This document shows positions 2,205-35,589 of a stretch of 35,677 bases of DNA, one piece after another. Within the stretch, counting starts at the first letter, position 1. Every line of letters begins with the position of its first letter. The translations under genes and the position numbers were made by a program. The notes under the pieces were generated by a model. That model was not told the DNA's origin. It saw nothing but the letters and a program-made list of their open reading frames with translations, and did not search any database. Origin of the DNA: an uncultured Bacilli bacterium (GTDB lineage: Bacteria; Bacillota_I; Bacilli_A; RF39; UBA660); contig CALVQO010000003.1 of assembly GCA_944358145.1 (NCBI GenBank), positions 1-35,677 on the forward strand, given 5' to 3'.

Positions 2205-2214
2205 AATTTAATAC

Positions 2215-2243
2215 TTTTCAAAATTACAAAAATACTATATAAT
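2215..2243 (+). promoter_or_regulatory. Promoter of the second secreted paralog
   Basis: TTTTCA (2215-2220) and TATAAT (2238-2243), 17 nt apart. The -10 box overlaps the ATG at 2242, which argues against that ATG being the translation start. Confidence 0.6.
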
Positions 2244-2271
2244 GTATTATAGTGAGATAGTGGTGATAAAA

Positions 2272-2847: not shown

Positions 2848-2862
2848 GAAATTACCTTTTTT
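2843..2862 (+). terminator. Rho-independent terminator overlapping the stop codon
   Basis: GGTAA-GAAA-TTACC stem-loop followed by six T. The left arm contains the TAA stop of the second secreted paralog. Confidence 0.65.
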
Positions 2863-2907
2863 AAATGCTTTAAATATGATAAAATAGTAGTAGAAGTCGG
2901 AGGTAGT

Positions 2908-4154: not shown

Positions 4155-4163
4155 GGTGATTAT

Positions 4164-5258
4164 GTGAATAAAATAATTAAAAATATATTAAATAAAATAG
4201 AAACAGAAGGGTATGAAGCTTATATAGTAGGGGGATATGTCCGTGATTTATTAGTAGGAATATCTAGTTGTGACATCGACATATGTACAAATGCTACCCC
4301 AAAAGAATTAATGTTAATTTTTCCCAATGCATCTTCCAAAAATCTAGGTGGAATAGAATTTAAAGTAAAAGAATATCACATTGAAATTACAACATATCGT
4401 GAAGAAAAAAAATATAAAGATCGTAAACCAATAGAATTCAATTACATTAATAATTTAGTTTTAGATTTACAACGAAGAGATTTTACCATAAATGCCATCT
4501 GTATGAATAGTAAGGGAGAAATTATAGATTTAGTCGGAGGAATTGATGATTTAAGTTCCCTAAAAGTAAAAATGATAGGTGATACTTTCATAAAAATAAA
4601 AGAAGATCCCCTAAGAATGTTAAGAGGAATACGTATAGCAACTATACTTAATTTTAATTTAGATACTACTTTATATAAAGAAATAGAAACAAATAAAGAA
4701 TTAATTTTAACTTTATCTAGTACTAGATTAAAAGAAGAATTAGATAAAATATTATTATCAAAAAATGTAAAAAGAGGATTTAATTTATTAAATGATCTAG
4801 GTATTATTCATTTATTAGGAATCACGAATTGGGAAAATATTGTGCCAGTAAAAAATATTGAAGGAATGTATGCTCAAATCAAAATCAATTATGAATTACC
4901 ATTTACTAAAGTAGAAAAAAATAATATTATCTCTTTAAGAAGAATCATCAACACTGAAGAAATTGATAAACAAACTGTATATAATTATGGCTTATATTTA
5001 TCTCAAGTAGCAGGAGAAATATTAAATATAGATAAAAAAGAAATCAATAAATTATATAAAAATTTACCTATACATGATAAGAAAGAAATGAATATTAAAG
5101 CGAGTGATATAGTAGAAATATTAAATATAGATTATTCTAAAGTAATAAGTACAATAATGAAAGATATTGAAATTTTAATTATAAATGGTGAATTAAGAAA
5201 TAAACAAAGTGATATTGAAAAATATATATTAGATCATAGAAGTGAGTGGTTAAAATGA
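4164..5258 (+). CDS. cca: CCA-adding tRNA nucleotidyltransferase
   Basis: 364 residues, starting at GTG 4164; the ATG two bases earlier would stop at once, and AAGGTGAT precedes. The class II nucleotidyltransferase head shows GGYVRD (23-28), the metal-binding DID of SCDIDICTNA (D37, D39), RRDFTINA (104-111), a GG..DL element and the EDPLRMLRGIR neck motif. The enzyme builds or repairs the 3' CCA end of tRNAs using CTP and ATP without a template. Poly(A) polymerases share this head, but the length and the neighbouring tRNA gene miaA favour CCA addition. The stop TGA overlaps the dnaD ATG. Confidence 0.93.
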   Translation: MNKIIKNILNKIETEGYEAYIVGGYVRDLLVGISSCDIDICTNATPKELMLIFPNASSKNLGGIEFKVKEYHIEITTYREEKKYKDRKPIEFNYINNLVLDLQRRDFTINAICMNSKGEIIDLVGGIDDLSSLKVKMIGDTFIKIKEDPLRMLRGIRIATILNFNLDTTLYKEIETNKELILTLSSTRLKEELDKILLSKNVKRGFNLLNDLGIIHLLGITNWENIVPVKNIEGMYAQIKINYELPFTKVEKNNIISLRRIINTEEIDKQTVYNYGLYLSQVAGEILNIDKKEINKLYKNLPIHDKKEMNIKASDIVEILNIDYSKVISTIMKDIEILIINGELRNKQSDIEKYILDHRSEWLK

Positions 5259-5887
5259 ATTTAGATTATTTTAAATGCCCTAAATATATTACTAACAGTT
5301 TATTTATGAAAAAAGCATTACAATTAAAATTAACATTAGAAGAGTTTCTAATGTTAACTTATTTTGATAATGATTACAATAATTATTTAAACATAGATGA
5401 ATTAAGTAATAATATAGGGATATCATCAGAAAAAGCATATGAAATCTTTACTAATTTATTAAGCAAAAAACTAATTGATATCAAAACAGAAAAAGATATT
5501 GAAGGAAGATTAATTGAAAAAGTTAGTTTAGATAATTTTTATGAAATGATTATAGAAGAAGAAAAAGAAAGTGAAAAAAAGGAAATAAAAACTGACATTT
5601 ATAAAGAGTTTGAAACAGAGTTTGCTAGACCAATTACTAGTATGGAGTATGAGATAATTAATGCTTGGTTATCTCATAATTATAGTGAAGAACTAATTAT
5701 TGGCGCGTTAAAAGAAGCTGTATATAATGGAGTAAGAAACTTAAGATATATTGATAAAATATTATATGAATGGAATAAAAAAGGATTTAAAACAATGCAT
5801 GATGTAAATAATCATTTAGAAAGAAAAGAAGTAAAGAAGGAGGATAGTGAGTTATTTGATTATAACTGGTTAGATGATGAAGAGTGA
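5255..5887 (+). CDS. dnaD: DnaD-like primosome protein
   Basis: 210 residues from ATG 5255, chosen because it overlaps the cca stop as ATGA; an in-frame GTG three codons earlier adds nothing. Residues 1-95 form a winged-helix oligomerisation domain (LTLEEFLMLTYF, LNIDELSNNIGIS). After an acidic linker the C-terminal DnaD helical domain (about 118-195) is recognisable by EFARPITSMEYEIINAWL, IIGALKEAVYNGVRNLRYID and the YIDKILYEW motif. In Bacillus, DnaD works with DnaB and DnaI in loading the replicative helicase at the origin and at restart sites. The adjacency dnaD-nth is a well-known Bacillota gene pair. The final 14 nt overlap the start of nth. Confidence 0.9.
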   Translation: MNLDYFKCPKYITNSLFMKKALQLKLTLEEFLMLTYFDNDYNNYLNIDELSNNIGISSEKAYEIFTNLLSKKLIDIKTEKDIEGRLIEKVSLDNFYEMIIEEEKESEKKEIKTDIYKEFETEFARPITSMEYEIINAWLSHNYSEELIIGALKEAVYNGVRNLRYIDKILYEWNKKGFKTMHDVNNHLERKEVKKEDSELFDYNWLDDEE

Positions 5888-6506
5888 AGATGTAATTAAC
5901 ATATTAGATGAGTATTATCCCGATGCTAGATGTGAACTGAATTACACGAAAGATTATGAATTATTAATTGCAACTGTCCTAAGTGCACAGTGTACAGATA
6001 AAAGGGTAAATCAAGTAACAGAGGTATTATTCCAAAAATATGATTTAGAAAGTCTTAAAGAAGCTGATATAAAAGACATTGAAAATATCATTAGACCTTG
6101 TGGCTCTCATACCAAAAAGGCAAAATATATAAAGACTATAGCAGAAAAACTAATTAATGATTATCATGGCGTTGTCCCTAATAATAGAGAATATTTAGAG
6201 AGCTTGCCTGGAGTAGGTAGAAAGACTTGTAATGTGGTATTATCAAATATTTATGATGTACCTGCAATTGCCGTAGATACCCATGTAGCTAGAGTGTCAA
6301 CTAGGTTAGGACTAGCAAAAGAGGGGAATGATGTATCAGTAATTGAACAAAAACTGATGAAGAAATTTCCCAAAGATAAATGGAGCAGACTACATCATCA
6401 ACTAGTTTTATTTGGAAGATATAACTGTACAGCTAGAAACCCTAAATGTAGTGAATGCTTATTTAAAGATAAATGTAAACATTATAAAAAAATTACTCAT
6501 GAATGA
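5874..6506 (+). CDS. nth: Endonuclease III (DNA glycosylase/AP lyase)
   Basis: 210 residues, the standard Nth length. It removes oxidised pyrimidines and nicks the abasic site in base excision repair. The helix-hairpin-helix is LPGVGRKT (111-118), with the catalytic Lys at 117 and the catalytic Asp in AVDTHVARV (D135). The C-terminal [4Fe-4S] loop is intact: Cys 185, 192, 195 and 201 with spacing 6-2-5. The start lies inside the end of dnaD (14-nt overlap) and the best SD-like AAGGAGG is about 35 nt away, so expression probably depends on coupling to dnaD. It is the last gene of the mscL operon and ends in a bidirectional terminator. Confidence 0.96.
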   Translation: MMKSEDVINILDEYYPDARCELNYTKDYELLIATVLSAQCTDKRVNQVTEVLFQKYDLESLKEADIKDIENIIRPCGSHTKKAKYIKTIAEKLINDYHGVVPNNREYLESLPGVGRKTCNVVLSNIYDVPAIAVDTHVARVSTRLGLAKEGNDVSVIEQKLMKKFPKDKWSRLHHQLVLFGRYNCTARNPKCSECLFKDKCKHYKKITHE

Positions 6507-6515
6507 GTAATTTTT
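6488..6515. terminator. Bidirectional terminator between nth and the convergent operon
   Basis: A stem of 13 bp, AAAAATTACTCAT with ATGAGTAATTTTT, and a 2-nt (effectively 4-6 nt) loop. A and T tracts on both sides serve both strands. Confidence 0.85.
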
Positions 6516-7047
6516 ATTGTGATCGAATATCTTGAGTTTCGAGTAGATCTTCAAATTCTTTAGCAGTATGAATACCATGAGTAGTAGCCAATTCTCCATC
6601 TTTAAAATATAAAATGATAGGAACTTCAGAAATAATACTAGCATCTATTTCTAAAGCATCAGCAATATCTTTTTTATAATTAGTATTAGTATCCTTAAAA
6701 TCAGTAACATTTAAGAAATAAAAACTATTTTGTAAATGATAATCATCAATTAAAGGCTTTAATTCTCTTTCTAAATTATAAACATCTTCATCACTAGTAT
6801 AACTAATATATAAGAAATAATAACTAGGAGTTTCTGATAAAACAGAACTAATTTCATCAATATCAGTCATTTCCAAACTAATGGTATTCGTACTAATTAA
6901 ATAGCTATTATAATATTTCTCTTGTTCTTTAACTGTATCCCATTTATGCAAATATAACGCAAGAAAAATTATGGCTAAAATAATACAAAGTCCAATAAAA
7001 TATTTTTTTAAAGTTTGAGATTTATACTTTATTTTACTACTTGCCAT
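6514..7047 (-). CDS. Membrane-anchored thioredoxin-fold protein lacking CXXC
   Basis: 177 residues from ATG 7047, which has a strong GGAGGG 5 nt upstream; a longer reading from 7074 adds nine residues ahead of the SD and is unlikely. A basic cytoplasmic N-tail precedes one membrane helix (about residues 17-36, YFIGLCIILAIIFLALYLH). The extracytoplasmic part has the thioredoxin layout: YYFLYISYTSDEDVYNLERE, a FYFLNVTDF strand, EIDASIISEVPIILYFKDGE with the cis-Pro before the last strand, and a terminal helix. The place of the redox CXXC is taken by TSDEDV, so it should not act as a disulfide oxidoreductase and may be a binding or scaffold protein. It follows ftsK on the same strand with 55 nt between. 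Function unknown. Confidence 0.7.
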   Translation of the reverse strand: MASSKIKYKSQTLKKYFIGLCIILAIIFLALYLHKWDTVKEQEKYYNSYLISTNTISLEMTDIDEISSVLSETPSYYFLYISYTSDEDVYNLERELKPLIDDYHLQNSFYFLNVTDFKDTNTNYKKDIADALEIDASIISEVPIILYFKDGELATTHGIHTAKEFEDLLETQDIRSQ

Positions 7048-7102
7048 AACATCCCTCCAATAATATTTTAACATACAATAATCTTATTTGTAAATCCCAT
7101 TT

Positions 7103-9331
7103 TTATTCTGATTTGTCTTCTAATTTAACTAAAACTTCTCTTGGTTTAGACCCATTAGGAGGACCAACAATACCTCGTTCTTCTAAGAGATCAACTACTC
7201 TAGCAGCTCGGTTATACCCAAGTCTAAATCTTCTTTGAAGTAAACTTGTACTAACTTTACCAGTTTGAATAGCAAATTCTACAATTTCATTATATAGAGG
7301 ATCATCATATTCTTCAGTTTCATTAGGTAGTCCATGAATACCACTACCAGTAGCATCTAAGTTTTGCATTTCTTCACTATAATGAGCAACTTGTTCTTTA
7401 CATACATAATCAATAATTCTCTTAATTTCATCATCAGTAATAAAACATCCTTGAATACGAATAGGAACATTTTCACCCATAGGTAAATATAACATATCAC
7501 CTTTACCAAGTAATTTTTCAGCACCACTCATATCAAGTATAGTTCTAGAATCGATATTAGATGCAACCGCAAAAGCAATACGAGAAGGGATATTTGCTTT
7601 AACAACACCAGTAATAACATCGGTTGATGGCCTTTGGGTTGCAACAATTAAGTGTATTCCTGCAGCACGAGCCATTTGAGTAATTCTCATAATTGAATCT
7701 TCAACTTCTTTGCTTGCTACAAGCATTAAATCAGCAAGTTCATCGATAATAGCAACAATATAAGGCATTTTAGCTACATTAGTATTATTCTTCTGATTTT
7801 CTTTCATAATCCATTCATTATAACCAGCAATATTCTTAACATTAGCATCACTAAACATATCATAACGTTTATCCATTTCTGCCACTAATTTTTGCAGTGC
7901 AATACTAGCTTTCTTAGGATCACTTACAACTGGACATAGAAGGTGAGGAACACCATTATAGTTGGATAATTCAACTTTTTTAGGATCGACTAACATGAGT
8001 TTTACTTCATCAGGTTTATAACGCATCAAAATAGAACATATCATCGTATTTGTACAAACAGATTTACCAGAACCTGTAGAACCAGCAATTAGAAGGTGAG
8101 GCATTTTCGATAAATCAGCAAGCTGTGGTCTACCCATGATATCTTTACCTAAAGCAACCACAATTTTAGCATCACTCATCGCCTTAGATTCATGAGCTAA
8201 AACTTCTTTAAATTTAACAGCACTAATACTTGGATTAGGTATTTCAACACCAATAGTGCTTTTACCAGGAATAGGAGCTTGTATTCTAACGTCTTTTGCA
8301 GCTAGTGCTAAAGCAATTTCTTTATTAATACCAACTATTCTTGATACTTTAGTACCACTCGGTACCTTTACTTCATATTGAGTAACTGCAGGACCAATAT
8401 GGATCTCTACCACTTGACCATTGATTTGGAAGTCTTTAAGTACTCGTTCCAAATTTTCTTTATTACTACGAATAAAATTATTGGATGCAGAATTCTTTTT
8501 AGGAGGAGTTACATCATCTAATAAAGATAAAGGAGGAAGAGTATAATTGCTATTCGCTTCATATATACTTTCTTTATTTGTTTCCAAGTTCTCTTTTTGA
8601 GGTTCTTTCATAGTTTTTAATTCTTCCATACTAGTAATAATAATCTTATCATTTTTCTTTTCTTCAAATTCCTGATCTTCTTCGTACTGATAAACTTCTT
8701 CTTTTTCTGGTTTTTCTTTAGGAGTTGCATTTTTAAGTTTACTAAAGAATGATTTAATCTTATTTACGATATCAGCAAAAGTAATATTAAAGATTAAGAT
8801 AACTGCAAATAAAATTAAAATAACACAAACAATTTTAGTACCAGTAAGTCCAAATAAACTAGATAGACCAATAGAAAATATAGCCCCTAATACACCTCCA
8901 CCAATTTCAATAGAAGTATCTCCACTAGTAAATAAAGCTGTATTAGATCCAATAGTAGAAATTCTAGCCATATACTGATCTATAGTAGACTGAAAAATAT
9001 CACCAGCTCCATCACATTCCCGAATATAACCAAAATGACTTGCTACAAGCAATACAATAATTACTACATAAAATCCTACTAATTTCTGACTCAAGAACTT
9101 AGGCAAACTTCTTTTAATTAACATATAAATTCCAAGACCTAAAATAAAAATTAAAAGAAAAATCCAAGCCCAACCTCCAACCAAGAACATTGCAAATTTC
9201 TTAATAATAGAGCCAACTGGACCAAAACCAAATCCAATAATACCAATTAATATTAGTATAAGACCAGTAAGTTCGACACTAAATCCTACTTTTTCTGTTT
9301 CATCTTTTTTTGTTTTTTTCTTCTTTGCCAT
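7103..9331 (-). CDS. ftsK: DNA translocase FtsK/SpoIIIE
   Basis: 742 residues. A Lys-rich N-terminus leads into several membrane helices (within about 20-190) that tether the protein at the septum, then an acidic linker, the alpha/beta RecA-like motor and the gamma winged-helix domain. Visible motor motifs are HLLIAGSTGSGKSVCTN (Walker A near 415), VKLMLVDPKKVELSNY, PYIVAIIDELADLM (Walker B) and LIVATQRPSTDVITG. The gamma domain at the C-terminus (KVSTSLLQRRFRLGYNRAARVVDLLEE) would read polar KOPS/SRS-type sequences to direct transport. The protein pumps chromosome DNA through the closing septum. The N-terminus begins at ATG 9331 with GGTGAAG upstream. Confidence 0.96.
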   Translation of the reverse strand: MAKKKKTKKDETEKVGFSVELTGLILILIGIIGFGFGPVGSIIKKFAMFLVGGWAWIFLLIFILGLGIYMLIKRSLPKFLSQKLVGFYVVIIVLLVASHFGYIRECDGAGDIFQSTIDQYMARISTIGSNTALFTSGDTSIEIGGGVLGAIFSIGLSSLFGLTGTKIVCVILILFAVILIFNITFADIVNKIKSFFSKLKNATPKEKPEKEEVYQYEEDQEFEEKKNDKIIITSMEELKTMKEPQKENLETNKESIYEANSNYTLPPLSLLDDVTPPKKNSASNNFIRSNKENLERVLKDFQINGQVVEIHIGPAVTQYEVKVPSGTKVSRIVGINKEIALALAAKDVRIQAPIPGKSTIGVEIPNPSISAVKFKEVLAHESKAMSDAKIVVALGKDIMGRPQLADLSKMPHLLIAGSTGSGKSVCTNTMICSILMRYKPDEVKLMLVDPKKVELSNYNGVPHLLCPVVSDPKKASIALQKLVAEMDKRYDMFSDANVKNIAGYNEWIMKENQKNNTNVAKMPYIVAIIDELADLMLVASKEVEDSIMRITQMARAAGIHLIVATQRPSTDVITGVVKANIPSRIAFAVASNIDSRTILDMSGAEKLLGKGDMLYLPMGENVPIRIQGCFITDDEIKRIIDYVCKEQVAHYSEEMQNLDATGSGIHGLPNETEEYDDPLYNEIVEFAIQTGKVSTSLLQRRFRLGYNRAARVVDLLEERGIVGPPNGSKPREVLVKLEDKSE

Positions 9332-9348
9332 CTTACTTCACCATAATA

Positions 9349-9378
9349 ATTATAACGTAAAGAAGAGTTTAATGCAAA
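9349..9378 (-). promoter_or_regulatory. ftsK promoter
   Basis: On the minus strand TTGCAT (9378-9373) and TATAAT (9354-9349) are 18 nt apart, ending 17 nt upstream of the ftsK start. Confidence 0.55.
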
Positions 9379-9428
9379 TAAATATTCGCTTAAATGAAAA
9401 GATAAAATGTAAAATAGATAAATTAAGG

Positions 9429-9458
9429 TTGAACTAATCTTAATGATTACTTTATAAT
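9429..9458 (+). promoter_or_regulatory. Promoter of the small GNAT gene
   Basis: TTGAAC (9429-9434), 18-nt spacer, TATAAT (9453-9458), 18 nt before the ATG at 9477. Confidence 0.65.
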
Positions 9459-9476
9459 ACCATTAAGAGGTGTAAA

Positions 9477-9746
9477 ATGATAGAAGTAAATACGAATAAA
9501 ACAATTTATAAAATAGACGACCAAATATTAGGAGAAATAGATTATCCAAGCATTGATGACAAAACAGTAAATATCACTCATACTTTTGTTGATCCATCCT
9601 TAAGAGGACAAGGCATTGCAGATAAACTCATGACTGAAGTATTTAAATATTTAAGTGAGAATAATTTAAAAGTAGTCTGTACATGTTCTTATGCAGCTTC
9701 ATGGCTAGAAAAACACCCAGAATATCAAGATCTTAAAGTTGATTAA
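9477..9746 (+). CDS. Small GNAT-fold N-acetyltransferase-like protein (COG2388 type)
   Basis: 89 residues, the size of the minimal GNAT proteins in COG2388. The core acetyl-CoA signature is THTFVDPSLRGQGIADKLM (about residues 34-53), with the pyrophosphate-binding RGQGIA loop. It is followed by a helix and strand (LKVVCTCSYAASWLEKHPEY), which is typical of this subfamily. AAGAGGTG precedes the ATG. The biological acceptor is unknown. The stop codon lies inside the -35 region of the downstream antitoxin RNA promoter, so the two transcription units are packed without a gap. Confidence 0.85.
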   Translation: MIEVNTNKTIYKIDDQILGEIDYPSIDDKTVNITHTFVDPSLRGQGIADKLMTEVFKYLSENNLKVVCTCSYAASWLEKHPEYQDLKVD

Positions 9747-9767
9747 TAGATGAGTTTATGTTATAAT
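9739..9767 (+). promoter_or_regulatory. Strong extended -10 promoter of the type III antitoxin RNA
   Basis: TTGATT (9739-9744) and TATAAT (9762-9767) are exactly 17 nt apart, with TG at 9759-9760 making an extended -10. Transcription should start near 9774, about 27-34 nt before the repeats. It is one of the best promoters in the window, as expected for an antitoxin RNA that must be made in excess over its toxin. Confidence 0.8.
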
Positions 9768-9800
9768 GTATACACATATGTAATTGATTTACATATATAT

Positions 9801-9917
9801 AAAAAAAGCGGTGAATCCAGCCGTATAAATTGGAACTTAAAAAAGCGGTGAATCCAGCCGATAAATTGGAACTTAAAAAAGCGGTGAATCCAGCCGATAA
9901 ATTGGAACTTAAAAAAG
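9801..9917 (+). repeat. Three tandem 36/37-nt antitoxin repeats
   Basis: Units begin with GCGGTGAATCCAGCCG at 9808, 9845 and 9881, continue with ATAAATTGGAACTT and end in an A-run. Copies 2 and 3 are identical over 36 nt. Copy 1 is 37 nt because of an extra T after GCCG (at 9824). There are no spacers, so this is not a CRISPR array. The 36-nt period equals that reported for the Pectobacterium ToxI repeats. Confidence 0.95.
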
Positions 9918-9919
9918 TA

Positions 9920-9950
9920 GGTTAGAGACTCAACTCTAATCTTTTATTTT
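9920..9950 (+). terminator. Terminator between antitoxin RNA and toxin gene
   Basis: GGTTAGAG / CTCTAATC stem of 8 bp (one G-T pair) with loop ACTCAA and a T-rich tail TTTTATTTT. In type III loci a leaky terminator at this position sets the antitoxin-to-toxin ratio. Confidence 0.82.
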
Positions 9951-9964
9951 GGTAATATTTATAG

Positions 9965-9970
9965 TATAAT
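9965..9970 (+). promoter_or_regulatory. Possible secondary -10 box for toxN
   Basis: TATAAT lies 26 nt before the toxin ATG, with only a poor -35 candidate (TTTTAT at 9942-9947, 17-nt spacer). If used, the toxin would not depend only on read-through of the terminator. Weakly supported. Confidence 0.3.
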
Positions 9971-9995
9971 TTTATTAGATATGGGGGTTCATATA

Positions 9996-10501
9996 ATGAG
10001 AAATTTTAAAATTGTACGTGTAAATTCAGATTACTGTGATTATTTAAGAAAATTTGATTCAAAAGTAAGTTATAATAAAGGATCAAAAAAATTAAGACCA
10101 TTTGTAGGGGTATTATTTAAAATAGATAAGTGGGAATACATTGCTCCGTTATCAAGTCCAAAACCCAAACATAAACTAATGAAAATAGACTTGATTTTTT
10201 TAAAATAAAAAATGGAGAATTAGGAGCAATTAATTTTAATAATATGATTCCTGTTACTAAAAACAATTATACAGAAATAGACTTGTATAATACAAATTTA
10301 GATATAGAAGAAAGAAAATATCAAAAAATGTTAAAAGAACAATTATCATGGTTAAATGCTCATAGTTATCAAATTAAAGATAGATCACATAAACTTTATG
10401 AGCGTTACAAAACTAATAAATTATCAACACAATTAAAAAATAGATGCTGTAATTACCCTTTATTAGAAGAAAAAAGTTTAGAATATGTTAAAGTACATTA
10501 A
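9996..10501 (+). pseudogene. toxN: ToxN/AbiQ-family type III toxin (endoribonuclease), split by a -1 frameshift
   Basis: The start is ATG 9996 with GGGGGT 7-8 nt upstream; the ATG at 9981 overlaps this SD. The first part (to TAA 10206-10208) has DYLRKFDSKVSYNKGSKK, RPFVGVLFKI, YIAPLSSPKPKHKLMK. The second frame, from about 10196, continues KIKNGELGAINFNNMIPV, YQKMLKEQLSWLNAH and ends RCCNYPLLEEKSLEY. Read through a -1 shift at T7 (10195-10201), the product would be 168 residues, about the length of ToxN (171) and AbiQ (172). ToxN is an adenosine-directed RNase that is held inactive by its repeat RNA and kills or arrests phage-infected cells. The split could be a dead gene, a phase-variable T-run or slippage at the T TTT TTA heptamer. 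Apart from the shift all conserved blocks are present. Confidence 0.85.
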
Positions 10502-10580
10502 AAGAAATGTGAAGAGTTAATTTTTTATTTACTTTTAAGGTTCAAAATGCTATGATGTTATAAAAAGAAAAGAGGATATT

Positions 10581-11570
10581 ATGGGATTATTTGATAAATT
10601 TAAAAAAATTTTTGTTAAAAAAGAAGAAAACAAAGAAGATGTAGAAACATATGAAAAAGGACTGGAAAAAACAAGAAAAGAATTTGTAAATGAACTAAGT
10701 ATATTAGGGCATAAATATACTAAAGTTAGTGATGAATATTTTGATGAACTAGAAAGTATTTTAATCATGGCCGATATAGGTGTTAATACGGTCATGGATT
10801 TTATTGATCGCTTAAAGGCAAGAGTAAAAAAAGAAAATATTACCGATACCAAATATTTACAAGAAGTTATTGTTGATGAACTATTTATTATCTATGTTAG
10901 TGGCGAATCTCTAAGTGATAAAATTAATATGAATCCAAATGGACCAACTGTTATTTTAATGGTAGGAGTAAATGGTGTAGGGAAAACTACAACCATAGCT
11001 AAACTTGCTTACAAATACAAAAAAGAGGGCAAAAGTATTATGATGATCGCTGGTGATACCTTTAGAGCAGGAGCCGTACCTCAATTAAAAGAATGGGCAG
11101 AAAAAACAGGTTCATTATTTTATGGCAAAGAAAATACTGATCCAGCAGGAGTAATTTATGATGGACTAGTAAAAGCCAAAGAAGAAAATGTTGATATTGT
11201 TTTAATTGATACAGCAGGACGACTTCAAAATAAAGTAAATCTAATGAAGGAGTTAGAAAAAATAAACAAAGTAATAGAAACTCATATAGAAGGAGCACCA
11301 CAAGAAACATTGCTAGTAATTGATGCTTCAACCGGGCAAAATGGAATTTTACAAGCAGAAGCTTTCAAGGAAATTACCAATATTACAGGTATAGTTTTAA
11401 CTAAATTAGATGGAACAGCTAAAGGTGGTATAGTTTTAGCAATTAAAGAAAGTGTAAATATACCAGTTAAATTCATTGGTTTAGGGGAAAAAATGGAAGA
11501 TTTAAAACCATTTGATATTGAAAACTACATTTATGGATTATTCAAGGATATGATCGATGATGGAAAATAG
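10581..11570 (+). CDS. ftsY: Signal recognition particle receptor FtsY
   Basis: 329 residues. A short Lys/Glu-rich A region (about 1-30), which helps membrane association, precedes the N helical bundle and the SRP-type GTPase G domain. G motifs are GVNGVGKTTTIAKLA (about 130-144), DTFRAGAVPQLKEWA, the DTAGRLQNKVNLMKEL switch (near 209), TKLDGTAKGG (near 273) and the closing FIGLGEKMEDLKPFD. It docks ribosome-nascent chain-SRP complexes at the membrane. AGAGGA precedes the ATG and TATGAT at 10551-10556 is a likely -10. The last 14 nt overlap ylxM. ffh, the usual next gene, is not here. Confidence 0.96.
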   Translation: MGLFDKFKKIFVKKEENKEDVETYEKGLEKTRKEFVNELSILGHKYTKVSDEYFDELESILIMADIGVNTVMDFIDRLKARVKKENITDTKYLQEVIVDELFIIYVSGESLSDKINMNPNGPTVILMVGVNGVGKTTTIAKLAYKYKKEGKSIMMIAGDTFRAGAVPQLKEWAEKTGSLFYGKENTDPAGVIYDGLVKAKEENVDIVLIDTAGRLQNKVNLMKELEKINKVIETHIEGAPQETLLVIDASTGQNGILQAEAFKEITNITGIVLTKLDGTAKGGIVLAIKESVNIPVKFIGLGEKMEDLKPFDIENYIYGLFKDMIDDGK

Positions 11571-27156: not shown

Positions 27157-27277
27157 AATTTACATAAATTTTGCTAGATAAAGTCGTAAAGATTAAAAAT
27201 TGTGCCCATCTAACTTAACGGTTATTTACAAATTATATATGGTATGTTATACAGGGACTAGATGGAGGAATTTTCTC

Positions 27278-27968
27278 ATGAATGAAGAAGCATATTATAA
27301 AGAAATAGAACACTTAATAAAAAGAAATGAAATAAATAAACGAGTAAGAAAATTAGAAGAAAATCAGACACTAGTAACAACATATTGGGAAATAGGAAAG
27401 ATTTTAGTAGAAGCCCAAGGAGGTTCTTCACGTGCCAAGTATGGTAATGAACTAATTAAAAAATGGTCTAAAAAACTTACTGAACTTTATGGTAAAGGAT
27501 ATGATGCAACTAATTTATCTAGATTTAGAAAATTTTATTTATGTTTTCCAATACTTGGGCCAGTGGCCCAAATATCTTGGTCAATTATTTATACCTTACT
27601 TCCAATTAAAGATGAGAATAAGCGCAACTATTATATTAATCGATGTATTAAAGATGATTTATCAATTAGAGATCTTCGTAGAGAAATAAAATCAAATTCA
27701 TATGAAAGATTAATTAATAAGCCTGATAAAATAGATATCATTGTTCCAGAAAAGTATTCTATTACTACAGATATGAAAAATCCAATTATCATTGAAGTAA
27801 ATAAAGAAATTAAATCAGAGAAAGATTTAGAATTAAGTATTTTATCTAATCTATCATATTTTTTTAAACAATTGGGAGAAGGTTTTGTCTTTTAATATAA
27901 AATTAAATTGTTATTTTGTAGAAAGTGAAAATATAATTCCTTTAAATTATAAAATAAAAAATGTCTAA
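27278..27968 (+). pseudogene. DUF1016/YhcG-type nuclease gene with deleted catalytic domain
   Basis: The frame from ATG 27278 (GGAGGA upstream) runs 205 codons to TAA 27893-27895. It matches the N-terminal DUF1016 domain: LVTTYWEIGKILVEAQGGSS, LIKKWSKKLTELYGKGYDAT, LSRFRKFYLCFPI, SWSIIYTLLPIKDENKRNYY and LSIRDLRREIKSNSYERL. The protein stops at QLGEGFVF, where the family's PD-(D/E)XK nuclease domain should begin. In the +1 frame just after, FNIKLNCYFVESENIIPLNY followed by KIKNV to TAA 27966-27968 looks like later parts of the same domain. An internal deletion with a frame change therefore removed the catalytic Asp and Glu/Lys region. The 3' end overlaps the convergent murC stop. An ancestral nuclease, defence or mobile role is inferred; the present product is probably inactive. 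Confidence 0.75.
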
Positions 27969-27981
27969 TTAGACACTTTTT
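27955..27981. terminator. Bidirectional hairpin at the murC end
   Basis: A perfect 14-nt palindrome TGTCTAATTAGACA (27962-27975), with A6 on the left and CTTTTT on the right. It can act as a terminator for both strands and contains the murC stop. Confidence 0.7.
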
Positions 27982-29347
27982 GATTTAAAATTAGTTTTGC
28001 TACTTGATTAACAGGTCCAGCCCCAATAGTTAAGATTAAATCATTAGGTTGTACATGTTCCATTAAATAAAGTGCAATTTTATCATAAGTAGGAATATGA
28101 ATAACATTAGGATTTTCTTTTTGAATTAATTTTACCAAATCATCTTCCTTAACATTCCAAATGTTTGTTTCTCTAGCTGGATAAATATCACAAATAATAA
28201 CGTGATCAAATTTACTTAAAATATTAGCAAATTCTTGTAAATGTTCAAAAGTTCTACTATAAGTATGAGACTGAAAAACAGCCCAAGTCTCATGATGTTT
28301 AATAGATTTACTAGAATCATAAGTGGAAGCAATTTCAGTTGGATGATGAGCAAAATCATCAAATACATGAGCACCATTATATTCACCCAAATATTCAAAT
28401 CGCCTTCCTACACCATGAAATTCTTTTAATGCTTTTTTTACTACTTCAAGATCAATATGATAATTAATACTCATTGCTATTGTAGCTAAAGCATTTAATA
28501 CATTATGTCTACCCAAAACACCTAATGTAAAAGTATCCAAATATTCATGATTAAAATAAACATCGAAAGTAGGGAACCCTAATTCTGAATAACAAATATT
28601 TTTAGCCATTAAATTAGCATCATGTTGAATACCATAAGTAAGTAAATGATCATGATTTAAAGTTAAATCATCAATATTTTCATCATCAATATTAACAACT
28701 AAAAAACCATTTTTAGGTAACAAATCAATATATTTTTGAAAAGATTTTTTAGTATTTTCAACAGTTTTAAAATAATCTAAATGATCATCATCAATATTCA
28801 ATATAATTTCACTAGTAGGATGAAAATGCAAGAAAGAATCTACATACTCACAAGCTTCTAAAATAAAATACTTTTTTCCACCAATATAATAATTACCATG
28901 AATTTTCTGTAAAGAAGCCCCAATATTAATTGTTGGATTAAGACCCGCTTCTAAAAAGACAGAAGCCACCATACTAGTAGTAGTACTTTTTCCATGAGTT
29001 CCACTAATACAAATTAAATTTTCATATTGTTTAGTATATTCTCCTAAAAATACAGCTCTTTCAACAGCTTCAATACCATGACTTCTAGCATAAGATAGTT
29101 CAACATCATCATCATGTATAGCAGCAGTATAAATTACTAAGTCTGCATTTTGAATCAATTCCACTTGATGACCAATTACAACCTTTATTCCAATACTTTC
29201 CAAATATTTAGTATGTTCTGATTCTTGCATATCACTACCAGTAACATTCTTTCCATCATGCTTTAACATAGCAGCTATAGCATACATACTAGCCCCACCA
29301 ATACCAATTAAATGTATATTTTGATATTCTTTTATTTCTTTTTTCAT
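27965..29347 (-). CDS. murC: UDP-MurNAc-L-alanine ligase MurC
   Basis: 460 residues from ATG 29347, which has GAGGTGA 5 nt upstream; the GTG at 29356 lies in that SD. It joins L-Ala to UDP-MurNAc with ATP. Motifs: NIHLIGIGGASMYAIAAML (UDP-binding), LICISGTHGKSTTTSM (P-loop), FILEACEYVDSFLHFHP, ILNIDDDHLDYFKTVEN, GVLGRHNVLNALATIAM, GVGRRFEYLG and VFDDFAHHPTEI. FQSHTYSRTFEHLQEF also fits the family. The Mur-ligase central GTHGKST and the HN..NAL element rule out MurE/F assignment, and DFAHHP is typical of MurC. It is monocistronic here, unlike murE. Confidence 0.96.
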   Translation of the reverse strand: MKKEIKEYQNIHLIGIGGASMYAIAAMLKHDGKNVTGSDMQESEHTKYLESIGIKVVIGHQVELIQNADLVIYTAAIHDDDVELSYARSHGIEAVERAVFLGEYTKQYENLICISGTHGKSTTTSMVASVFLEAGLNPTINIGASLQKIHGNYYIGGKKYFILEACEYVDSFLHFHPTSEIILNIDDDHLDYFKTVENTKKSFQKYIDLLPKNGFLVVNIDDENIDDLTLNHDHLLTYGIQHDANLMAKNICYSELGFPTFDVYFNHEYLDTFTLGVLGRHNVLNALATIAMSINYHIDLEVVKKALKEFHGVGRRFEYLGEYNGAHVFDDFAHHPTEIASTYDSSKSIKHHETWAVFQSHTYSRTFEHLQEFANILSKFDHVIICDIYPARETNIWNVKEDDLVKLIQKENPNVIHIPTYDKIALYLMEHVQPNDLILTIGAGPVNQVAKLILNQKVSN

Positions 29348-29431
29348 CTGCTTCACCTCATAACTTTATTATATTATATACTCGAAAATATGGTTTAAGC
29401 AATAAAAATTCTTTTTTTTTATGTAAAACAA

Positions 29432-29491: not shown

Positions 29492-30361
29492 ATGAGAGTT
29501 TTAAAATATTTAGTATTTGCTAATGTTATTTGTTTTGTAGCTCTTTGTAGTGCAAATGCAGCATCATGTACATATAAATATAATAATTATACTTATGAAT
29601 GTAATGTTACAACAAACTCATTAAGTTGTGATTTTCTATATAATAATAATTTAAGTAAAGATGCCATTAATACAAGTAATTTAAACATGACATTAAGTGA
29701 AGATGATTTTATTAATAGTGATGGTGAAGTAGACTGTAATGAGGTTAGAAATTTATACTTTGATCAAAATATAAATAATCGTTCTATTCAAATAATTTAT
29801 GATATTAGAAGTGATAATAATAATTGTCCAATTCATACACAAAGATATAATGCAAGACCTGGAGATTTTCTTACAGAAACAAATGGATGTGTAACTTATT
29901 CATTAAGCAATTCTTCTAATGATGATAGCAATGGAAATACATCTGATGAAGATGGAGGATTTAATCCTGGATCAGGGACAGGTACAGGATCTGGTAATAC
30001 AGGTGATGGTGAATTTAACACTGAAAATTTTTGCAGTGGATCAGTTCAAGGAGTATTTACAACTATAGGTTGGGTATTTTTCATTGCTAAAATTTTAATA
30101 CCTATAGTATTAATTATATTTGGAAGTATAGATTTTGGAAGAGCAATAATAGCAAATAAAGACGATGAAATTAAGAAATCTGCTAAATCATTAGTTATGC
30201 GTGCTGTAGCAGGAGTAATTATTTTCTTCATTCCAACTCTATTAAATTTTGTTGTTGAAATTATCGGTGGAGATGATTTATATAATGGCACATTTGCCAC
30301 TTGTACTCACTGTATGTTAGAACCAACAGATTCTAGTTGTAGAAAGTTAATAGGTGATTAA
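29492..30361 (+). CDS. Secreted membrane protein with VirB2/TrbC-like two-helix tail
   Basis: 289 residues; GGAGG lies 5 nt before the ATG. A signal peptide (about 1-23, ending ALCSANAAS) precedes an Asn/Cys-rich extracellular part (about 24-150). A Gly/Ser linker (NPGSGTGTGSGNTGDGEF) follows, then two hydrophobic helices. The first is GWVFFIAKILIPIVLIIFGS (about 195-214); after FGRAIIANKDDEIKKSAKSL comes the second, MRAVAGVIIFFIPTLLNFVV. Two helices joined by a short charged cytoplasmic loop are the layout of type IV secretion pilins of the VirB2/TrbC class, here with a large added ectodomain and a Cys-containing tail. The next protein shares this tail. It heads a four-gene operon; similarity is by architecture only. 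Confidence 0.65.
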   Translation: MRVLKYLVFANVICFVALCSANAASCTYKYNNYTYECNVTTNSLSCDFLYNNNLSKDAINTSNLNMTLSEDDFINSDGEVDCNEVRNLYFDQNINNRSIQIIYDIRSDNNNCPIHTQRYNARPGDFLTETNGCVTYSLSNSSNDDSNGNTSDEDGGFNPGSGTGTGSGNTGDGEFNTENFCSGSVQGVFTTIGWVFFIAKILIPIVLIIFGSIDFGRAIIANKDDEIKKSAKSLVMRAVAGVIIFFIPTLLNFVVEIIGGDDLYNGTFATCTHCMLEPTDSSCRKLIGD

Positions 30362-30362
30362 G

Positions 30363-31568
30363 ATGAAAAAATATATAATTTTAGCAATATTATTATTCAG
30401 TTTTAATTTAACAAATGTACATGCTACACCTATAGAAGATGAATGTATAGAAAATGGAACTTGTGAAGTTTTATGTAATTATGAAACAATTGTAAGTAAT
30501 GGCAAAAATAATGGCCAATGGAGACGAAATTTAACTATTTATTATGCTTTTGACGAAGGCTTATATATTAAATATCAGTCACCTACTGGTCAAGAAGTAC
30601 GAGAATATTCTAAAGGACCATATCCATCATTTAGTTATACACTCTCTAATGCCGGAGGATTTAACGTTTATTGGGGAATAGACTATACACCAGAGATAAG
30701 TAATTTTTCATGTCCAACAAATGGCTATATCGATACAAATGGCTTTAATGGTGGAAATGAAATTTGCTTTGACAATGATGGTGTAACTTGTAAAGAGGAA
30801 TACAGTAATTTTGCAACTTCATTTGGATTTGATCATAATTTTATTTCACAAAAAAAAGATTATGATTTTGAAGAACAAATAGCGAATTACAAAAACTGGA
30901 TATTTGGCGATATAAAAGAAGATATTTCAAACGGTACATTTAAAAATGAAGAAGAAATATATGATAAGATAGTAAAAGACTTCCAAGAAAATTTTTTGAG
31001 TGGCAATACATTACCAGCTTTCATGGCTAATTCTAAAGCCTTCCAAGATATATATAATAGTATCATAGAAGAATTTGAAGAAACAAAGCAAGAAGCTTTA
31101 GATGACGCAAAACAAGATGTCGCTGATGGAAATAAAACTCAAGAAGAATATGATGAAATAGCTAATAATTGGGAAAATTTAGATAGTGAAAAGTTAGAAG
31201 AAGAAGCCCAAAAAGCACTTGATACTATTCAACGAGAAAGTATTGAAAGTACATTAGAGTGGGAAGCTGACACTTGCAGCAGTTTTTTAGGCGATAAAAA
31301 TGATAGTAACGATCCGGCTTACTATTTGAATTTTATATTCAATTTATTGAAATATATTGCTATAGTTATATTATTTGTATTTTCTATAATAGAATTTGGA
31401 AAAGCCGTTATCTCAAATGATAATGATGCTTTAAAAAAAGCTGTACAAAAAACAATAAAAAGATTAGTAATATGTATTGTAATATTTTTCTTGCCTCAAT
31501 TAATTAATTTTATTATGGAACTTTTAGGAGTAATAGAAGATCCAACTTGTGGAATAGGGGTGAGATAA
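30363..31568 (+). CDS. Secreted membrane protein with coiled coil and VirB2-like tail
   Basis: 401 residues from ATG 30363; GGTGATTAAG precedes it, and the stop of the upstream gene overlaps that SD. A signal peptide (about 1-22, LLFSFNLTNVHA) is followed by a Cys-containing beta-rich domain (about 25-150) and an acidic helical or coiled region (about 165-300: IEEFEETKQEALDDAKQDVA, EKLEEEAQKALDTIQRESIE). Two membrane helices close the protein: FNLLKYIAIVILFVFSIIEF, a charged loop AVISNDNDALKKAVQKTIKR, and LVICIVIFFLPQLINFIMEL. This tail matches that of the preceding protein, so the two are divergent duplicates of one membrane module with different outer domains. It lies 1 nt before the VirB6-like gene. 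Function unknown. Confidence 0.65.
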   Translation: MKKYIILAILLFSFNLTNVHATPIEDECIENGTCEVLCNYETIVSNGKNNGQWRRNLTIYYAFDEGLYIKYQSPTGQEVREYSKGPYPSFSYTLSNAGGFNVYWGIDYTPEISNFSCPTNGYIDTNGFNGGNEICFDNDGVTCKEEYSNFATSFGFDHNFISQKKDYDFEEQIANYKNWIFGDIKEDISNGTFKNEEEIYDKIVKDFQENFLSGNTLPAFMANSKAFQDIYNSIIEEFEETKQEALDDAKQDVADGNKTQEEYDEIANNWENLDSEKLEEEAQKALDTIQRESIESTLEWEADTCSSFLGDKNDSNDPAYYLNFIFNLLKYIAIVILFVFSIIEFGKAVISNDNDALKKAVQKTIKRLVICIVIFFLPQLINFIMELLGVIEDPTCGIGVR

Positions 31569-31569
31569 T

Positions 31570-33720
31570 ATGTTTGAAGAAATCTTAAATGTTATTCAAA
31601 CGGGAATATTTTGGCTTTTGTTAAAAATTGATGGTATTGTTTACACTTTTATCGACTGGGTATATCAAATAATTTTGTTATTAGCTAATGGAAACATACT
31701 AACTAATAGGGAATTTTTAAATGAATTGATAAACAGAATGTATATCGTAGTTGGAGTTATAGTTTTATTTTTAGTAGCTTATTCATTAATTAGAAGTATG
31801 GTTAATCCTGATGATGCATTAAAAGGAAAGGAATCACCAGCTAAAGTTATTCAAAATGTTATTATATCTGTTGTACTAATAGCTATTACACCTTATGTAT
31901 TTGACTTTGCAATGCGCTTTCAAACAGCTTTATTACAACAAAACACAATTGGAAAAATAATTTTAGGCGAGGGAAGTGGAGACATATCTTCAGAAGAGAC
32001 AATTAATGAAGGTGGCTTTACAATTGCTATAGATGTTTTTCAAGCTTTTTTTCAACCAAACACCAGAATAGGTTATTGTACTGGAATTGAGTCAATAGAT
32101 GCAAACTATCCAGACTGTAAACCTTTAAATAATGTTACAATAGGAACTTATACTAGCTACTATGATTGGTGGGATACAGAAGTTATCCAAAATAAAAACT
32201 TGTTTGCAATTGCTCAAGCATCTCATTTAGTAGCAGATGAAAGCATATCATACACATTTTTAATTTCTACAGCAGCTGGAGTCTTTGTATTGTATGTATT
32301 GGCATTATATTGTATTGAAATAGCAATAAGATTAGTAAAGCTGGCATTTTACCAACTAATTGCACCACTCCCAATTTTAACTAGAATAGTGCCAAAAGAT
32401 GATGTAAAAAAAATGTTTGATAATTGGATAAAAGCAACATTATCAACCTACCTTGAAGTATTTGTAAGACTAGGAATATTATTTTTTGCAATTTTTATAA
32501 TCAGGCTTATAATAGACAATTTTATGAGCATATTTAATGTTTTAGGAGAAAATTGGGGTAATGTAAATCCTGTCTTAGTTTTAATTGCTCAAGTGTTAGT
32601 TATTGTTGGAATCTTCCTATTTGTAAAACAGGCTCCTCAAATTATTAAAGATATTACAGGTCTTGATGGTGGAAAATATGGCAAAGCATTAATCAAAGGT
32701 GCTGGAATGATAGCTGCTTCTATTGGTGGAGGAACAACAGCAACAATAAGAAGTTTTGTTAGTGATAAAGATAAACCTTTACCTCAAAGACTCGGCCGAG
32801 CATTTACAGCAGGATTAAGTGGAACTACAAAAGGATTACATCAAGGAAGCAAAATTGATAAATTTGGTGATATGCCAAAAGCCGCGGGAACAGCATCCTC
32901 TAACGCTCTTAGTGGAAGAGCAAGAAGAGAAGCTGCAGGTGGTTGGAAAGGTTATTTTGGAGCTCAAAAAGATACATTATTATCAAAGGGAAAAAATTGG
33001 CTAAATGTTGATAATAATGATCGAGTACAAGAATTTGCTGGGAATTTAGATAAAGATATTAGCCAATCTCAAGGAGTATATAAAAAGAGTCAAGACTATA
33101 TTGATGCCAAAGCATTACAAACTAAGCTAAAAAATAGTATTAAAGATTATGACCAAGCATGGAATAATATTTTACTAGAAGCACAAAATGATGAAAGAAC
33201 AAAAGACCCAACGAAGGAAGGATATATTTCTGCGGAAGAGTTAGCTCAACAAAACTTTATTCAACGCTTTGGAAAATCAATAGATGCAATGCATATTGAG
33301 TTAAATGCTGCTAATAATACTGTTGAAGGAATTAAAATCAATGAATCAAGGAAAAAAGCAACCTCTGTTGCTGCTGGAGCAAGAGATTTTGTCTTCCAGC
33401 TCCAACGTTTTTCTGATTTGAAATTTGACGTTCAAGATGCAATAAAAATAAAATTGCAAAAGGATCCAAATGAAGCTCAACGACTAATTAATGCATATAA
33501 TAATTACAGCAAATTTAATGATGATCCTGAAAAATTATATGAACAAATAACATTAGACTTACAAAGTAAAGATGATACTATGGTAAAGAAAGCATTAGAT
33601 TATATAGATGCTTTAGACATGGCTAAGAACTATGCATTAGACTTGCAAAGTACTGCTGCTTTCAAAGAAACAGTATTTAAAGCAAAAGTTAAAGATACTT
33701 CTGGAGATAAAAAGAAATAA
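31570..33720 (+). CDS. VirB6/TrbL-like polytopic membrane protein
   Basis: 716 residues. The first ~370 residues contain several membrane helices (YIVVGVIVLFLVAYSLIRSM, VIQNVIISVVLIAITPYVF, YTFLISTAAGVFVLYVLALY, LGILFFAIFIIRLIID, VLVLIAQVLVIVGIFLFVKQ), with an extracellular Cys-containing segment at about 155-215 (GYCTGIESIDANYPDC). This plan fits VirB6/TrbL, the inner-membrane channel subunit of type IV secretion systems. From about 370 the chain is cytosolic: a Gly-rich stretch (SIGGGTTATIRSF), then a long charged helical region to the end. AGGGGTGAGATAAT supplies the SD, and the upstream stop is 1 nt away. No VirB4, VirD4 or relaxase gene is in view. Confidence 0.7.
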   Translation: MFEEILNVIQTGIFWLLLKIDGIVYTFIDWVYQIILLLANGNILTNREFLNELINRMYIVVGVIVLFLVAYSLIRSMVNPDDALKGKESPAKVIQNVIISVVLIAITPYVFDFAMRFQTALLQQNTIGKIILGEGSGDISSEETINEGGFTIAIDVFQAFFQPNTRIGYCTGIESIDANYPDCKPLNNVTIGTYTSYYDWWDTEVIQNKNLFAIAQASHLVADESISYTFLISTAAGVFVLYVLALYCIEIAIRLVKLAFYQLIAPLPILTRIVPKDDVKKMFDNWIKATLSTYLEVFVRLGILFFAIFIIRLIIDNFMSIFNVLGENWGNVNPVLVLIAQVLVIVGIFLFVKQAPQIIKDITGLDGGKYGKALIKGAGMIAASIGGGTTATIRSFVSDKDKPLPQRLGRAFTAGLSGTTKGLHQGSKIDKFGDMPKAAGTASSNALSGRARREAAGGWKGYFGAQKDTLLSKGKNWLNVDNNDRVQEFAGNLDKDISQSQGVYKKSQDYIDAKALQTKLKNSIKDYDQAWNNILLEAQNDERTKDPTKEGYISAEELAQQNFIQRFGKSIDAMHIELNAANNTVEGIKINESRKKATSVAAGARDFVFQLQRFSDLKFDVQDAIKIKLQKDPNEAQRLINAYNNYSKFNDDPEKLYEQITLDLQSKDDTMVKKALDYIDALDMAKNYALDLQSTAAFKETVFKAKVKDTSGDKKK

Positions 33721-34403
33721 TGTTCGGATTTAATGAAGCAAAAAAATCAGTTAATAATTGGACTAAAAACATTAAAGAAAAATACGAAAAAGAACTAACA
33801 ATAATTGATAAAATTATAGAATTAATAAATCAAATATTAAATATTTGGAAAAGTGATTTAGGATATAGAAAATATAATCAAAAAATTTTAATGTTCAAAT
33901 ATCAGTATTTTAACTTTCCTAGCTTTGATTTATTTTATAAAAATTATCTTGAAATAATTAGATCAGAAACTTTAGTAAAGCTTAACAAAAAAGGATATAA
34001 TGATTTTAGCGCCAAATTAGGGATTATAAAGTTTTTATTGAAACAATATAACTATCCAATAACAGAAATAAAAGATTTAAAAGAATTTTTAAACTGTTTA
34101 CAAAAATATCAATTTTTAATTGAACAAAGGGAAAAATATAAAAATAGTTTAATTCTGGAAAATTATTCTTTGATTTACTACAATTGTCTTTCAATAAGCT
34201 CATATCAAAAAAAATATTCGGAACTTTATAAAATTATTGGGAGATATGAAGATATTGATATTATATTAGGACCATATGGTGAGAAGATAAAAAGCGAAGA
34301 TCCTATATCTTTTACATTTATAAGTAGTCTAGAAACACTTTTGATTAATTTGGAAAATGAAAAAGCAATAATCGAACTATCTTATCATTCTAAAAATCGT
34401 TAA
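33720..34403 (+). CDS. Cytosolic helical protein of unknown function
   Basis: 227 residues. The ATG shares its A with the stop of the VirB6-like gene (TAATG), so translation should be coupled to it. No signal or membrane segment is present. The sequence is rich in Lys, Ile, Tyr and Asn and predicted mainly helical (KSVNNWTKNIKEKYEKELTI, YQYFNFPSFDLFYKNYLEII, IKFLLKQYNYPITEIKDLKE). No motif that I recognise. Tight linkage suggests a partner of the membrane complex, perhaps contacting the cytosolic tail of the VirB6-like protein. It is the last gene of the operon. Confidence 0.6.
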   Translation: MFGFNEAKKSVNNWTKNIKEKYEKELTIIDKIIELINQILNIWKSDLGYRKYNQKILMFKYQYFNFPSFDLFYKNYLEIIRSETLVKLNKKGYNDFSAKLGIIKFLLKQYNYPITEIKDLKEFLNCLQKYQFLIEQREKYKNSLILENYSLIYYNCLSISSYQKKYSELYKIIGRYEDIDIILGPYGEKIKSEDPISFTFISSLETLLINLENEKAIIELSYHSKNR

Positions 34404-34752: not shown

Positions 34753-35589
34753 ATGAGAGGAGGTGCGAATATAAAAACAGAAACATTTGTTAACCTAACT
34801 AATGACATTCTATTTAAATATGTCTTTAGTCATGAAGAATTGACGTTTGATTTATTAAAATCTTTCTTTAATTATATAGGTATTCCTAAAGAAATAGAAA
34901 GTATACAAGTATTCAAAGATTATTCGATATATGGAACTAACATGGAAGATAAAGTTTTTTATAGTGATATTGTTGCTATATTAGAAGATACGGAATATAT
35001 ATCCATAGAAATGTACACATATTTTAGTAAAGAAGAATATATGAAAAGTGCATCTTATTTATCTAGATTATTTGCTAATCAGTTAAAAAGAGGTGATCTT
35101 TATACAAAAGCCAAAAAAGTGTACAGTATCAACTTTATGACGGGAAATTATTCAGAAGAAAATAAAGACATAGTAAATGATTATGGTTTCATTAGAAAAA
35201 TTGAAACGCCTAGCAAAGACAATGAATTCATTATCATGTACCTGATAAGACTTGATAAAGTCAGCAAAATAGTATACAATAAGAATGAATCAAGATTAGT
35301 AAGGTGGTTAAGACTAATGAAATCAGAAAGTATAGAAGAAATGGAAAGTATAGCGAAAGGAGATAAAACAATGGAACAAGCAATAGAATACGTAGATGCC
35401 TTCTTAAAAGAAGAAGGAACAACATTTCAAGATAAGATAGAGTATGAAAAAGCCAAGTCAGAAGCAAAAGGCCGTGAAGATGACAAAAAAGAAACGGCTA
35501 AGAATATGCTAAATAAAAGTTACTCTATTTCTGAGATAATGGATATCACTGGTTTAAGTCAAACAGAAATTGAAGCATTAAAAAAATAG
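34753..35589 (+). CDS. Rpn/PD-(D/E)XK nuclease-transposase family protein
   Basis: 278 residues from ATG 34753. The N-terminal PD-(D/E)XK fold shows LTNDILFKYVFSHEELTFDL, an acidic residue in YSDIVAILEDTEYISIEMYT (SDI plus E-M-Y, where most relatives have E-M-Q), then KSASYLSRLFANQLKRGDLY and KVYSINFMTG. This is the Rpn/PF12784 family, linked to recombination-promoting nucleases and often carried in many copies in Bacillota. The C-terminal third is a charged helix (FQDKIEYEKAKSEAKGREDD) leading to an HTH-like end, SYSISEIMDITGLSQTEIEA. The only strong SD (AGAGGAGGTG) lies downstream of the ATG, so the real start may be later, possibly a rare ATA at 34771. Catalytic ability is uncertain because of the E-M-Y change. 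Confidence 0.82.
   Translation: MRGGANIKTETFVNLTNDILFKYVFSHEELTFDLLKSFFNYIGIPKEIESIQVFKDYSIYGTNMEDKVFYSDIVAILEDTEYISIEMYTYFSKEEYMKSASYLSRLFANQLKRGDLYTKAKKVYSINFMTGNYSEENKDIVNDYGFIRKIETPSKDNEFIIMYLIRLDKVSKIVYNKNESRLVRWLRLMKSESIEEMESIAKGDKTMEQAIEYVDAFLKEEGTTFQDKIEYEKAKSEAKGREDDKKETAKNMLNKSYSISEIMDITGLSQTEIEALKK

Follow-up and report, generated by a model that had tools for sequence, protein, structure and literature searches.

Almost all known type IV secretion systems (T4SSs) of Gram-positive bacteria move DNA only, and according to a 2025 review VirB2 pilins are absent from Gram-positive T4SSs except those of Patescibacteria (PMC12857230). This work concerns a 35,677-nt stretch of DNA (the window; contig CALVQO010000003.1) from an uncultured Bacilli bacterium of the order RF39, in which an operon of four genes, A, B, C and D, appears to encode VirB2-like pilins and a VirB6-like channel of a T4SS. 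Genomes of the order RF39 are reported to be highly reduced, with lost biosynthesis and numerous auxotrophies (PMC6784871), and its members may need scavenged muropeptides (PMC10868615). An earlier reading of the window by a model (the original prediction) called this operon undescribed, and no T4SS description for RF39, UBA660 or Caccenecus was found in the literature searched, whose coverage excludes preprints and most subscription journals.

A T4SS of comparable gene content is found in Patescibacteria/Saccharibacteria, for example Southlakia epibionticum (PMC12102498, PMC10633639, PMC12857230), where it is essential for epibiotic growth (PMC12102498, PMC10633639). Both systems are chromosomal, near-universal in a monoderm lineage with reduced genomes, and combine a VirB4 resembling that of mating-pair formation class FATA (MPF_FATA) with arrays of VirB2-like pilins (2-11 in Patescibacteria) and with VirB6, VirB1-like and VirD4 proteins and, here putatively, VirB3, mostly without a relaxase. 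The likeness is one of gene content and genomic setting. Here, in contrast, the bacteria are Bacilli, many pilins have a large N-terminal ectodomain, muralytic in some cases, VirB4 is split into two genes, and the linked genes are Tad-like, whereas those in Patescibacteria encode type IV pili.

C and three genes, E, F and G, that follow the operon in relatives find their best family matches in the T4SS of mycoplasma integrative and conjugative elements (ICEs; Mbov_0396 / Mbov_0397, NCBIfam). However, the mycoplasma element is mobile and has VirB3 and VirB4 fused in one 894-aa protein, while here they are three chromosomal genes of a relaxase-less system. The conjugative MPF_FATA T4SSs of Gram-positive bacteria (pCF10, Tn916, CD1110 type) share the set of VirB1-, VirB3-, VirB4-, VirB6- and VirD4-like proteins, but possess a relaxase and are without VirB2 pilins (PMC12857230, PMC12102498). 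Export of a protein has been reported for the Gram-positive 89K T4SS of Streptococcus suis (PMC12857230); unlike the present one it is island-borne and confined to one species, and VirB2 is not among the core components listed for it. With the RF39 system, arrays of VirB2-like proteins, pilins with large ectodomains and a core T4SS lacking a relaxase occur in a second monoderm lineage, which belongs to Bacillota and is found in animal guts. The system makes testable how uncultured RF39-type bacteria interact with other cells.

All four open reading frames (ORFs) are intact and form one operon. Their positions, from the raw sequence and the ORF list, and those of the hairpins of A and B, from AlphaFold2 models, are as follows:

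29492-30361, plus strand: gene A, 289 aa
30041-30265, plus strand: hairpin of A, residues 184-258
30363-31568, plus strand: gene B, 401 aa, with its ATG start at 30363
31314-31523, plus strand: hairpin of B, residues 318-387
31570-33720, plus strand: gene C, 716 aa
33720-34403, plus strand: gene D, 227 aa

The tight packing reported in the original prediction was confirmed to the base: a gap of 1 nt separates A from B and B from C, and C and D overlap in TAATG. A good ribosome site, GGGAGGAG, lies directly 5' of the ATG of A. Since the A-B-C order is repeated in nearly all same-genus genomes examined, the layout is far beyond chance.

A and B each have a signal-peptide-like N-terminus and close with a long hairpin of two helices, the loop of which is basic (6 Lys and Arg against 3 (A) and 2 (B) Asp and Glu). 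The hairpins are homologous (BLAST E ~1e-13; hhalign 99.5%, E 7e-23), in agreement with the earlier view that both proteins end in the same charged-loop hairpin. The AlphaFold2 model of A (mean predicted local distance difference test score, pLDDT, 69) shows a beta domain at residues 24-138, a disordered Gly/Ser linker at 142-175 and helices at 184-220 and 224-258; the protein thus comprises a signal peptide, a beta ectodomain of ~115 aa, the linker, the hairpin and a Cys-rich outer tail. Residues C181, K200, P204, D214, R237, P248, C271, C274 and C283 are invariant in the A-family alignment. B is composed of a signal peptide, an ectodomain, a helical stalk (169-297), the hairpin (helices 318-351 and 354-387) and a short outer tail (mean pLDDT 58). 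The structure predictions agree with the earlier description, A having a beta domain, a Gly/Ser linker, the hairpin and a Cys-bearing tail, and B a helical stalk and hairpin; the beta domain of B is mostly of low confidence and poorly determined.

Among 107 members of the hairpin family, 29 match Pfam T4SS_pilin (PF18895; E up to 0.01, best 4.8e-6) and three match T4SS_CagC, so that on these family matches the VirB2-like label first given in the original prediction is sound. A itself matches T4SS_pilin at E 0.011, below the cut-off, and at 7.1e-4 in the genome search, and the B hairpin matches NCBIfam ICE_Mbov_0396_TM at 0.001. As in VirB2 and T4SS_pilin proteins, a signal peptide is followed in A and B by a two-helix hairpin whose basic loop is predicted, from charge, to be cytosolic. 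A PDB sequence search with the hairpin profile returned receptor-like chance matches only, and the ectodomains of A and B of the window belong to no recognised family. Homologues of B adjoin A and C in the same-genus regions inspected.

C has ~6 hydrophobic segments and a soluble tail of 364 residues; its polytopic part spans residues 1 to ~375 and is followed by this long, highly variable, cytosolic tail. It matches NF045889 Mbov_0396 (an ICE membrane family) at 1.3e-6 and NF045890 pLS20_p028 at 2.5e-4, and BLAST (2e-7) relates it to an ICE protein of the same genome (L041:18437-19579) that is itself a TrbL_4 protein (1.2e-13). Because of these matches and this kinship, the earlier proposal of a VirB6/TrbL-like channel protein is supported; a PDB sequence search with C gave no match. 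C is kept in 23 of 24 other same-genus genomes. D, as had been proposed, is soluble and helical, and has no family in Pfam or NCBIfam; its slot is filled in the genus by diverse soluble proteins of 174-277 aa, and sister genera often lack D. Another genome has a further VirB6-like gene, solitary and diverged (840 aa, 31-40% identical to C) (L040, G002:C8:35001-55000, at 8181-10703), where it adjoins genes resembling tRNA-modification genes and has no pilin neighbours.

In most relatives C-D is directly followed by E (~103 aa), F (~196 aa) and G (594 aa), which are VirB3-like, VirB4-N and the VirB4 ATPase, respectively. The three are co-linear with a single 894-aa VirB4 from a mycoplasma ICE (positions 2-96, 100-276 and 295-891), at match strengths of 0.022 (weak), 2.6e-13 and 7.9e-103 (NF045975). 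E has weak matches to TcpE (0.0032) and to VirB4_plasma (2-96, at 0.022), and its position, size and two transmembrane (TM) segments fit VirB3. G matches the solved VirB4 4ag5 at 3.4e-57, and its Walker A (GTSGSGKS) and Walker B (MMVDEAH) motifs are intact in a same-genus relative. In G024, G014 and G016, E-F-G is located away from C-D.

The window is the whole of contig C3 of a genome bin (G000) of 1.2 Mb in 116 contigs, 78% complete, and a core VirD4 is encoded in the same bin on contig C21 (G000:C21). This protein (~720-850 aa; T4SS-DNA_transf, 1.1e-55) occurs once in nearly every same-genus genome, is distinct from the ~600-aa ICE copies, and in the window's genus lies after uppS and, usually, after a gene for a 151-aa one-TM protein. 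The original prediction had noted that no ATPase or coupling protein was visible, which for the ATPase is correct of the window's contig only. A genome without any T4SS ATPase would have refuted its reading, but VirD4 is present elsewhere in the genome and synteny in related genomes places VirB4 beside the operon in most of them.

The full locus of sister genera is a co-directional array of 1-7 hairpin genes, C, sometimes D, then E, F, G, a VirB1-like gene, a gene for a one-TM protein, and VirD4. The VirB1-like protein is bitopic, 370-1326 aa long, with NlpC/P60, CHAP, M23, muramidase or SpoIID-like domains. C lies at most 4.5 kb from G in 56/65 loci with enough sequence, VirD4 is found within 6.5 kb downstream in 28/43, and Tad-like genes stand directly upstream in 22/34. 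In the window's genus the Tad-like cluster is separate from the operon (G000:C1):

L042 (G000:C1:3001-23000), 1225-10252: Tad-like operon encoding secreted proteins of 248 and 1228 aa, DUF5411, an RcpC-like protein, a VirB11/TadA-family ATPase and two multi-TM proteins

The ATPase of this cluster is 88-97% conserved within the genus, and the operon closes with a third VirB2 hairpin, on a protein of 134 aa without signal peptide, 49% identical to that of A. TadB/TadC and TadZ are so named from gene position and topology rather than from Pfam.

Of the order's 288 genomes, 265 have VirB4 G, a few of them with an ICE-type match only; they span 94 of 102 genera, all of one family. Where the core form is listed, VirB4s share 63-94% identity. 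Relatives seen outside the order are ~35% identical or weaker, except for one 63% match from a bin with 7% contamination; the VirB4 relatives named here are of MPF_FATA / mycoplasma ICE types. In a tree of 20 core and 7 ICE VirB4s, with no wider outgroups, the core clade stands apart at 99/100. A bin titled Methanobrevibacter (L112, CANQZY010000049.1) also has the same VirB4 locus; this public record is probably misbinned. The relaxase PF03432 scored above cut-off in 50 of the 288 genomes and is not detected in most; in the window's genus its matches accompany separate ICE-type T4SS genes.

Parts of the system differ strongly in conservation. Within the genus, median identity is 93% for VirB4 and 85% for F, compared with 74% for Dus and 73% for MurC; it falls to 55-59% in the hairpins, 47% in the membrane part of VirB6, 31% in the A ectodomain, and 24% in both the B ectodomain and the C tail, the last three values being near background. 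VirB4 is the most conserved part, exceeding the housekeeping genes compared (MurC and Dus). The nearest A to that of the window is from G021 (ectodomain 70%), while the nearest C is from G008 (69%, versus 49% in G021); A/B and C alleles look mosaic, and recombination would therefore be frequent.

At least 100 residues precede the hairpin in 96 of 162 hairpin proteins from fetched loci. In several genera, proteins with B-type hairpins include Amidase_3, NlpC/P60, Peptidase_M15_4, C39 or VgrG3-like muramidase domains, and such loci are mostly without a VirB1-like gene after VirB4 (L113, L115, L118, L124, L127, L130 and L135), which suggests that the wall-cutting role has moved onto the pilin; the exceptions L119 and L120 keep a VirB1-like gene beside enzyme-bearing hairpins. 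In G004 and G020 an alpha/beta hydrolase is fused to A-type hairpins. Among individual proteins, L030:4860-6149 and L038:11527-12771 encode a VirB2-like hairpin followed by an alpha/beta hydrolase (PHB-depolymerase-like esterase), and L135:374-2833 an A-type VirB2-like hairpin followed by Big_2 Ig-like and YkuD-like L,D-transpeptidase domains.

The system is almost certainly a T4SS. We read the operon as that half of a chromosomal T4SS which supplies the VirB2-like pilins and the VirB6-like channel, the system being vertically inherited and without a relaxase of its own, with a probability of roughly 0.7. To judge from sequence, the system is a domesticated, relaxase-less T4SS, most like that of the Patescibacteria epibionts. 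Several points weigh against this reading. Neither F nor G was recovered from the window's own assembly (bin 78% complete), whose sole VirB4 is an ICE copy (C49), 32% identical, and G012 and G020 likewise yielded no VirB4. In the window's genus the surroundings of the operon showed no VirB1-like gene; no VirB8 was identified, the one-TM proteins after the VirB1-like gene having no VirB8 match. Both A (16.3 bits) and B (11.3 bits) score below the curated T4SS_pilin cut-off of 26.6 bits, and, among the mobility (MOB) classes of relaxase, the search covered PF03432 only.

Pieces of a separate ICE-type T4SS are present in the same genome (L041, G000:C1:43101-63034, and L181, G000:C49), with a TrbL_4 protein, a PrgI-like protein, a VirB4 of 808-815 aa and a weak relaxase match. 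The ICE genes (VirB4 on C49; VirB6 and PrgI-like at C1:61384) were considered as the missing partners of A-B-C and rejected, because that VirB4 represents a separate lineage at 32% identity.

The original prediction also allowed for a part of an integrative element, and a decaying ICE remnant at the contig end would account for the adjoining transposase and for the VirB4 missing on the window's contig. The almost constant presence of C in the genus, the recurring chromosomal left flank shared by most relatives and the four intact ORFs speak against it; conservation throughout genus and order, together with the constancy of the flanks, led to its rejection, and its probability is negligible. 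A conjugation machine that serves mobile elements in trans, or that has a relaxase which escaped detection, would fit the conjugation-type VirD4, VirB4, VirB6 and VirB3, nearest to those of MPF_FATA ICEs, and the presence in some genomes of ICEs with relaxases. Yet ICE-bearing genomes have separate VirB4, VirD4 and VirB6 of their own, and the core system occupies fixed chromosomal sites across the order with no signs of mobility, which makes this alternative improbable.

Surface display or adhesion only, in which VirB2 hairpins anchor variable domains and the channel carries nothing, would explain the extreme ectodomain variation, up to seven tandem hairpins per locus and the enzymes fused to hairpins; it is equally improbable, since a core VirD4 is kept and VirB4 has intact Walker A and B motifs and exceeds the compared housekeeping genes in conservation. 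Finally, a VirB6/VirB4-type channel and a pilus could take up the DNA of neighbours, as in archaeal Ced or Helicobacter pylori ComB. Pili cooperate with Ced (PMC12102498), and in many genera the T4SS genes adjoin a cluster of Tad-like pilus genes, one of which encodes a VirB11/TadA-family ATPase; the lack of a PF03432 relaxase in most genomes and the mosaic look of the C and A/B alleles, implying frequent recombination, are also in favour. Against DNA import or exchange stand the esterase, amidase, M15 and C39 folds of the ectodomains, which do not point to DNA, and the conserved dedicated VirD4. Import systems are generally without VirD4. We regard DNA import as unlikely.

If the operon is indeed half of a domesticated T4SS, A and B would enter the membrane via Sec, so oriented that the hairpin loops face the cytosol while the Cys-rich tails and the ectodomains are exposed outside. 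VirB3 (E) and VirB4 (F and G) may then drive assembly of A and B, with C as the VirB6 platform, into a conduit across the wall or a short pilus, the wall being opened by the VirB1-like protein or, in some genera, by hydrolase domains fused to B-type hairpins. VirD4 would feed or select substrates, most likely proteins, and the variable ectodomains, with the linked Tad-like pilus machinery, may select and hold neighbouring cells. The odds are about even that the system serves contact-dependent translocation to or from neighbouring cells. More tentatively, the whole order of auxotrophic, small-genome gut Bacilli might live by cell contact through a linked Tad-T4SS, whose variable and in some genera wall-cutting pilin domains would bind neighbouring bacteria and breach them; such a system would have evolved in parallel with that of the Patescibacteria epibionts.

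The operon is flanked by the following genes:

27965-29356, minus strand: divergent MurC-like gene, the left flank and chromosomal landmark, named by eye
34753-35589, plus strand: Rpn/PDDEXK_2 transposase-like (recombination-promoting nuclease-like) gene, PF12784 at 6.2e-21, at the contig end

The MurC-like flank is kept in 15 of 18 same-genus regions compared, and beyond it lie dus, pduL/PTAC and murE (murE and PTAC were identified with Pfam, dus by eye). The Rpn/PDDEXK_2 gene lies outside the secretion machine; together with the contig end it occupies the position that E-F-G (VirB3, VirB4-N and VirB4) holds in most relatives. An Rfam scan of the window gave no match. At 27200-27895 an ORF of DUF1016_N (YhcG-type) ends after its N-terminal domain, with almost no nuclease domain; it is probably a truncated copy, as versions in relatives are ~310 aa long.

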